Shown piece by piece: positions 25,081 to 25,587 of a DNA stretch of 64,000 nt. Position 1 is the first letter of the stretch, and the number at the start of each line of letters is the position of its first letter. Source of the stretch: Flavobacteriales bacterium (GTDB taxonomy: Bacteria > Bacteroidota > Bacteroidia > Flavobacteriales > JASBRU01); the NCBI GenBank assembly GCA_030149285.1, contig JASBRU010000006.1, positions 1 to 64,000 of the forward strand, written 5' to 3'. The position numbers and the translations under genes were made by a program. The notes under the pieces are model-generated. The model did not search any database. It saw only the letters and a list, made by a program, of their open reading frames with translations, and was not told the origin of the DNA.

Positions 25081-25109
25081 AAATGAGGAGCTAAATAGCT
25101 CCTCATTTT
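25081..25109 (+). terminator. Terminator-like hairpin after nhaD
   Basis: Perfect 12-bp stem AAATGAGGAGCT-AAAT-AGCTCCTCATTT followed by TT. Confidence 0.65.
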
Positions 25110-25156
25110 GGTTTCACTACTTTCTATTAATAAAATTATAATCCATCTTCTTCATT

Positions 25157-25502
25157 TTCTTTGCTTGTCCAAAGAAAACGAAGCAAAAGAAAAGACCGCC
25201 TTCCCAAGGTATTTTTAGCCTTTAGGCTAAAACCGTACTTGTTTTGCTAAATTTTCTCCAAGGCTTCGAAAATTATTAACGCAAACCAAGCACTATACTG
25301 AGGGAAGACCTGTTGCCTTCAAAGAAGGCAACCAAAGGGCATCTTAAAACTCACGTGAAGAAAAACAAGTTTTTAAACGTTTAGAAACAAAAGCTGTTTG
25401 AGCCTGAAAGGCGAGTTCTTTTGTTTTAGTGTAAAACGCAGTTTTTTAGTGAGTTTTGAGCGGCCTTGATTTTTTGTTCCTTTTGTATCAAGACAAAAGG
25501 AA
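25157..25502. repeat. Hairpin-rich noncoding intergenic element, putative repeat
   Basis: At least four perfect stem-loops (25157-25176, 25213-25232, 25313-25331, 25477-25502) plus long-range inverted repeat AAAACTCAC/GTGAGTTTT (25346-25354 / 25449-25457); no ORF. Repeat status cannot be tested within this window. Confidence 0.5.
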
Positions 25503-25587
25503 GTACAGAAGCTTCTTTTGCTTTCAAACAAAATGAACAAGAGTAAAAATGTTTTATCTTACACTCGCTTTCTATAAAGTAAAGTTC

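Follow-up and report, generated by a model that had tools for sequence, protein, structure and literature searches.

The 64,000-nucleotide stretch of a Flavobacteriales contig analysed here (the window) carries a hairpin-rich, non-coding block, flanked on one side by the gene of a CitMHS-family (NhaD-like) transporter (gene end 25054) and on the other by a DUF4919 gene (25549). A sequence-only reading had proposed either a dispersed repeat or a structured RNA, and our analysis revealed that both alternatives are true together: a BLAST search of the window's own genome returned 12 further matched stretches (the best of 355 bases at 88% identity), and strong covariation points to a structured single strand, probably RNA. 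The absence of coding sequence from the block was likewise borne out, apart from a single ORF of 55 aa that is attributed to chance. Recurrence in Bacteroidetes, suggested by the same reading, was confirmed by homologues across the phylum Bacteroidota; the sequence is thus neither single-copy nor devoid of homologues or covariation.

The element is gene-free, intergenic, dispersed and conserved across Bacteroidota, and one of its strands forms a long multi-loop hairpin with a 3' pseudoknot. With modest confidence we favour the explanation that the block is a divergently arranged pair of copies of a non-autonomous mobile element, ~160-230 nt long, the folded form of which would be recognised by an enzyme acting in trans. 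The family is best read as new: apart from an Acido-Lenti-1 match outside the elements, neither the element nor six loci with relatives matched any Rfam 15 family above the gathering threshold, and no description of it was found in open-access papers, PMC8040213 and PMC2864571 among them.

Architecture of the non-coding block

The block is composed of two related, divergent modules, A and B, which lie back to back with their hairpin/pseudoknot ends directed outward (Table 1). The four hairpins named from the sequence (25157-25176, 25213-25232, 25313-25331 and 25477-25502) were all found at these positions, the first of them reaching further, to 25150-25183, and the proposed long-range pair 25346-25354/25449-25457 is present as part of a longer pairing, 25338-25354/25449-25465, that is 82% complementary. 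Both modules fold more stably than dinucleotide shuffles of their sequence, module A at -49.2 kcal/mol (shuffles -34.5 +/- 3.5; z -4.2) and module B at -58.8 kcal/mol (shuffles -36.7 +/- 3.9; z -5.6), and for each of them 0 of 200 shuffles folded as well. The division into two modules, the covarying pseudoknot and a folded strand that can be identified by its G.U excess are points that go beyond the sequence-only reading.

Table 1. Coordinates of the parts of modules A and B in the window.
Feature	Position	Strand	Remarks
Module A, full-length family member (model R1)	25338-25502	+	cmsearch, fold z -4.2; folded strand +, pseudoknot at 3' end
Module A basal stem P1, 5' arm	25338-25354	+	pairs with 25449-25465; homologue of P1 in the family alignment
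Module A basal stem P1, 3' arm	25449-25465	+	pairs with 25338-25354
Module A pseudoknot strand a (CTTGAT)	25465-25470	+	pairs with hairpin loop; last base covaries with loop
Module A T-rich connecting loop	25471-25476	+	TTTT conserved in family alignment
Module A 3' terminal hairpin, stem b/b'	25477-25502	+	loop a' ATCAAG 25487-25492; stem pairs covary
Module B, cousin module, pseudoknot end outward at 25149	25149-25312	-	fold z -5.6
Module B 3' terminal hairpin, loop GACAAG	25150-25183	-	matching strand GTC at 25194-25196
Module B internal hairpin TTTTAGCC-TTTA-GGCTAAAA	25213-25232	not assigned	sequence and fold
Palindrome TTGCCTTCAAAGAAGGCAA at A/B module junction	25313-25331	not assigned	recurs in other copies

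The assignment of module A was obtained with a covariance model (R1) built only from 25 Chryseobacterium-type copies, none of them from the window's own genome. The cmsearch of the window with R1 returned exactly 25338-25502 on the plus strand, covering model positions 1-201 (108.3 bits, E 2e-24), and in this full-length match the pseudoknot pairing is kept (CTTGAT with ATCAAG). For module B the match to R1 did not rise above noise (E 0.005), and this module is best read as a cousin of module A. The internal loop GCGTTAA..TTTAG of module B is common to two B relatives from other families, and B-type ends (loop GACAAG or GGCAAG) have an upstream match in 9 of 9 cases, GAC with GTC and GGC with GCC; one of the nine sits on a Pseudoalteromonas replicon. 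The strict B-type pattern found no match in IMG/VR.

The same B + A arrangement occurs in another copy of the own genome, 88% identical. Compared side by side, the own-genome copies are mosaics of half-modules, several of which are joined back to back near TTGCCTTCAAAGAAGGCAA with hairpins outward, and this palindrome also lies at module junctions or beside module A in three of them (L010, L011, L015). In the surroundings of the block, a perfect terminator-like hairpin follows the transporter gene at 25081-25108, ~40 nt before the repeat, and several Chryseobacterium-type copies are likewise located directly behind terminator-like hairpins. Just outside module A, at 25512-25560, a weak minus-strand match to the model (E 0.1) may be what is left of a third pseudoknot end, and the copy in locus L009 has a remnant of this kind beside it.

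The pseudoknot end and the conserved fold

On the folded strand the 3' end comprises, in this order, strand a (CTTGAX'), the T-rich loop, stem b, loop a' (XTCAAG) and stem b'. In 80 loci picked by a degenerate A-end pattern, with covariation scored at pattern-free positions, the pair that closes the loop was Watson-Crick in all 80 (shuffled 41.7), in 77/80 (shuffled 26.9) the final base of the loop matched the first base of the downstream strand (hairpin-first reading), and the four outer stem pairs matched in 62-73 of the 80 (shuffled 25-38). Since the loop covaries with a strand outside the hairpin, the end forms an H-type pseudoknot. The X/X' pair matched in all 60 distinct rows of a 62-copy alignment (UA 33, CG 14, AU 13); this pairing is not part of model R1, and its covariation is independent of the model fit.

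The consensus derived with RNAalifold from the 25 Chryseobacterium-type copies (183-202 nt) contains 47 pairs, 27 of which show compensatory double changes. In the 62-copy alignment, which was fitted to the model and leans to its structure except at the pseudoknot, 91.3% of the cells pair, versus 64.5% in shuffles, and all helices show compensation. Compensatory double changes were seen in 43 of 52 pairs and double-change cells numbered 803 (230 when shuffled, at most 175 with partners slid), these being raw counts that ignore kinship and carry no phylogeny correction, with many of the loci chosen by their end motif. Among unpaired positions, the internal loops C[GUUAA]G/U[A]G (present twice) and CUGUUUGA../..GAGUU are conserved, and the internal loop C[GUUAA]/[A]G recurs within the long hairpin of each copy.

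Opposite the T-rich loop lies a stem segment, TTTT/AAAA, that hardly varies. In U.A-U triple-helix pseudoknots a T/U-rich loop faces an A-U stem in a similar manner. Judging from these conserved letters, the loop at 25471-25476 could act as a triplex strand in the groove of the T4/A4 stem, and such U.A-U triples would explain why the T4/A4 letters are nearly invariant while the rest of the stem changes.

Mispairs indicate which of the strands is folded. In 181 unique ends, the hairpin-first reading contains 46 A.C and 12 G.T mispairs, equivalent to 46 G.U and 12 A.C on the opposite strand; the body of the family alignment holds 89 G.U and 24 A.C, though its fitting to the model favours G.U, and 18 of the 25 Chryseobacterium-type copies have G.U at two wobble positions. 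As the mispairs favour G.U on one strand, it is a single strand that folds, and the tolerance of G.U suggests that this strand is probably RNA, with ssDNA as the alternative.

These properties bear on the alternative that the copies are either MITEs derived from a DDE transposon or plain palindromes maintained by template-switch correction in replication, the fold itself being functionless. Some units do have inverted hairpin ends (L089, L011, L020), and possible 4-bp flanking repeats (AATT, GATT) occur at two sites; the modules of Chryseobacterium, by contrast, stand singly and have a hairpin at one end. However, the two ends of the L089 unit differ at X (T/A in one, C/G in the other) and each keeps its own loop/guide match, so that the pseudoknot pairing is local; the mispairs are asymmetric between strands, unlike those of a palindrome, the unpaired loops keep their motifs across the phylum, and most sites examined lack a flanking duplication. 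We regard this alternative as quite unlikely.

Dispersal, apparent mobility and decay

In the window's own genome R1 found 9 matches, 5 of them strong. Across the phylum at least 82 of 396 sampled Bacteroidota genomes, in 39 of 172 genera, were positive (E <= 1e-6), often with several copies each; scoring covered the six best candidates of each genome, and these counts are lower bounds. The degenerate A-end pattern was found in 30 of 148 Flavobacteriales genomes and its reversed control in 0. Full-length R1 matches also came from a MAG labelled Neomarinimicrobiota (108.5 bits), from one labelled Ignavibacteria (72) and from Balneolota (67-76). Among the matches listed in a scan of a genome collection, in which the taxon labels of MAGs may be wrong, almost all belonged to Bacteroidota, with some in Balneolota, Ignavibacteria and Fusobacteriota. 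Carriage by phages or plasmids was rejected, as the phage collection gave no match to the element, plasmids gave stray short matches and IMG/VR yielded 20 stretches. Outside the elements, between element arrays of a Chryseobacterium-type genome (L168, 3773-3818), the Acido-Lenti-1 RNA (RF01687) was detected just above threshold.

The copies appear to be mobile and dispensable, as judged from near-identical copies in unrelated flanks and from a decayed old copy. Copies up to 94% identical stand in unrelated flanks in the own genome and in two others (G477, G444); in the clusters G541, G537, G547 and L100 the flanks are partly shared and tandem duplications are included. A search of 90 congeners with the flanks of five Chryseobacterium-type insertions, joined as if empty, revealed one site with an intact element in some species and differing internal deletions in others, for instance between CTAA or ACAAAAG repeats. 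This orthologous copy, variously deleted, is therefore an old decaying insertion that is not needed. Another site was apparently empty in some species; the sites examined yielded neither an insertion caught in the act nor a clean series of empty sites that agree on one junction. In L259 (G186), the position that holds the element in a sister species (the L235 insertion) is taken by another short intergenic repeat, CCATAGGTTTCACCTACGGCTACTC.

The flank just before the 5' end is pyrimidine-rich (C or T at -1 in 50/55), the ~9 nt after the 3' end are rich in A/purine (A 49%, T 17%), possible flanking duplications of 4 bp (AATT, GATT) were seen at two sites and none at most sites examined, and 0 of 88 sites lie inside an ORF of at least 150 aa. 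Gene orientation is unbiased, at 35 to 22 in one count and 27 same/same, 24 opposite/opposite and 14 and 11 mixed in another. The element lies closer to stop codons than to the start codons of genes that diverge from it, a pattern that selection against insertion into promoters would produce. Next to the 80 loci no protein cluster recurred beyond common families (SDR, sugar transferase), and an autonomous, gene-carrying version was rejected on this ground.

Several arrays were observed in addition. Nine copies lie on one strand over 40 kb in genome G477 (L319/L320, G477:C1:594000-634000), where a stretch of ~12 kb in a glycosyltransferase/radical-SAM cluster has one copy per one or two genes, resembling a cassette array. 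In L164 (3200-7000) and similar Chryseobacterium arrays, long AT-rich tracts of degenerate, AATTCAAAATCTAAAATTTATAATC-like units separate tandem copies.

The copies might alternatively encode a structured RNA that serves the host (a small RNA, a 3'-UTR stabiliser, an antitoxin or a sponge RNA) in several gene copies. This would account for the complex fold, the strong compensation, the G.U pairs on one strand and the frequent location of copies just after stop codons or terminators. Against it stand the patchy distribution (82/396 genomes), the lack of a recurring neighbour gene family among the loci, the unbiased orientation, on which the 3'-UTR model in particular was rejected, the decay of orthologous copies and the observation that no Y1, Y2 or RT partner follows the element. 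We consider a host-serving RNA unlikely.

Candidate enzymes and known systems

A very unlikely possibility, in our assessment, is a REP/REPIN-like or IS200/IS605-derived element whose hairpin ends are processed as ssDNA in trans by a Y1 HUH transposase (RAYT/TnpA). The hairpin ends, the inverted ends of some units and the intergenic dispersal are consistent with it, and the presence of Y1_Tnp correlates in Flavobacteriales with that of the end motif (22/30 positive versus 22/118 negative genomes, p 3e-8) and weakly with R1 over the phylum (67/82 versus 200/314, p 0.002), although genome size and clade confound this association. Y1_Tnp has, however, no match in 15 R1-positive genomes, including the near-complete, multi-copy G541, G444, G405 and G531, nor in the own genome (76% complete); RAYT-like Y1 genes are flanked by other, GCTG-tagged hairpins, and the fold of the element is ~10x larger than a REP. 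In 20 Y1 loci no hairpin with a CTTGA loop was found apart from one weak CTTGGA candidate, and RAYT genes were rejected as carriers of the element because other REPs lie beside them. The flanks of ~185-aa Y1 genes (L177-L189) carry GC-rich hairpins, GCTGSCGCGAGCGTCCCGCTCGTGC / GCTGCCGCGCGATTCCATCGCGTGGC, which form a separate, GCTG-tagged type of REP found in Chryseobacterium-type and other Flavobacteriales genomes.

The Y2 (IS91) transposase showed no association (3/30 versus 8/118, p 0.70), and the reverse transcriptase RVT_1 was present in 9 of 30 pattern-positive genomes and not found in the own genome (76% complete). Since presence and absence do not fit, Y1 (IS200/RAYT), Y2 (IS91) and reverse transcriptase were all rejected as required partners, although an RT elsewhere in the history of the cell could have played a part.

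Under the preferred explanation, that of a non-autonomous mobile element, the folded strand, likelier RNA than ssDNA, would be recognised in trans by an enzyme, chiefly via the pseudoknot end, and the element would then be copied to new intergenic sites. Single copies would escape selection and be eroded as deletions arise between short repeats, and the fold would persist because only folding copies are copied on. A more far-reaching reading, which we hold to be rather doubtful, is that of a bacterial counterpart of SINEs: a short, structured RNA would spread as RNA through Bacteroidota by means of a putative polymerase, integrase or ribonucleoprotein, with a triple-helix pseudoknot as its 3' recognition end. 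Identification of the copying enzyme could bring to light a mobilisation system not recognised so far, and with R1 such copies can be annotated throughout Bacteroidota.

Among known systems, REP/REPIN with RAYT (TnpA-REP) resemble the element in being short, gene-free, intergenic and multi-copy, with hairpin ends that are sometimes inverted and a presumed mobility in trans. REPs and REPINs are palindromes of 20-40 bp, whereas the element is a conserved 200-nt fold with a pseudoknot and lacks the GTAG/CGTC tag, and the defining tests failed (Y1 missing in several multi-copy genomes, other REPs beside the RAYTs here). Integron attC sites share the folded single strand and, at the G477 locus only, the placement of a copy behind each of several successive genes. 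Unlike attC, the element has neither a fixed gene orientation overall (27/24/14/11) nor the attC core sequence, and attC-like cassette arrays, suggested by G477, were rejected on orientation. H-type triple-helix pseudoknots, in which loop 1 is rich in U and lies against a stem 2 of A-U pairs, are known from telomerase RNA, and type III antitoxin RNAs have related folds. The likeness to these knots is one of shape alone, with the triples of the element inferred from conserved letters, and the element has no telomerase, toxin or reverse-transcriptase partner that we could find.

MITEs, e.g., those of Porphyromonas gingivalis (PMC4596501), are likewise non-autonomous and dispersed, and some units of the element have inverted ends as well; unlike in MITEs, no related transposase or consistent target duplication was found, and one strand, not the duplex, is selected. 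The STAXI pseudoknot repeats (PMC2864571), an example of structured motifs near mobile DNA, occur in other phyla as tandem arrays close to ssb, integrase and antirestriction genes; both they and the element are pseudoknot-based and may be RNA or ssDNA, whereas the element has a long hairpin and neither a gene neighbourhood nor an Rfam match. Most bacterial dispersed intergenic repeats are simple palindromes or transposon remnants, while the element described here is a compensated, phylum-wide fold of ~200 nt with a pseudoknot, present in multiple copies in genomes without the usual hairpin transposases.
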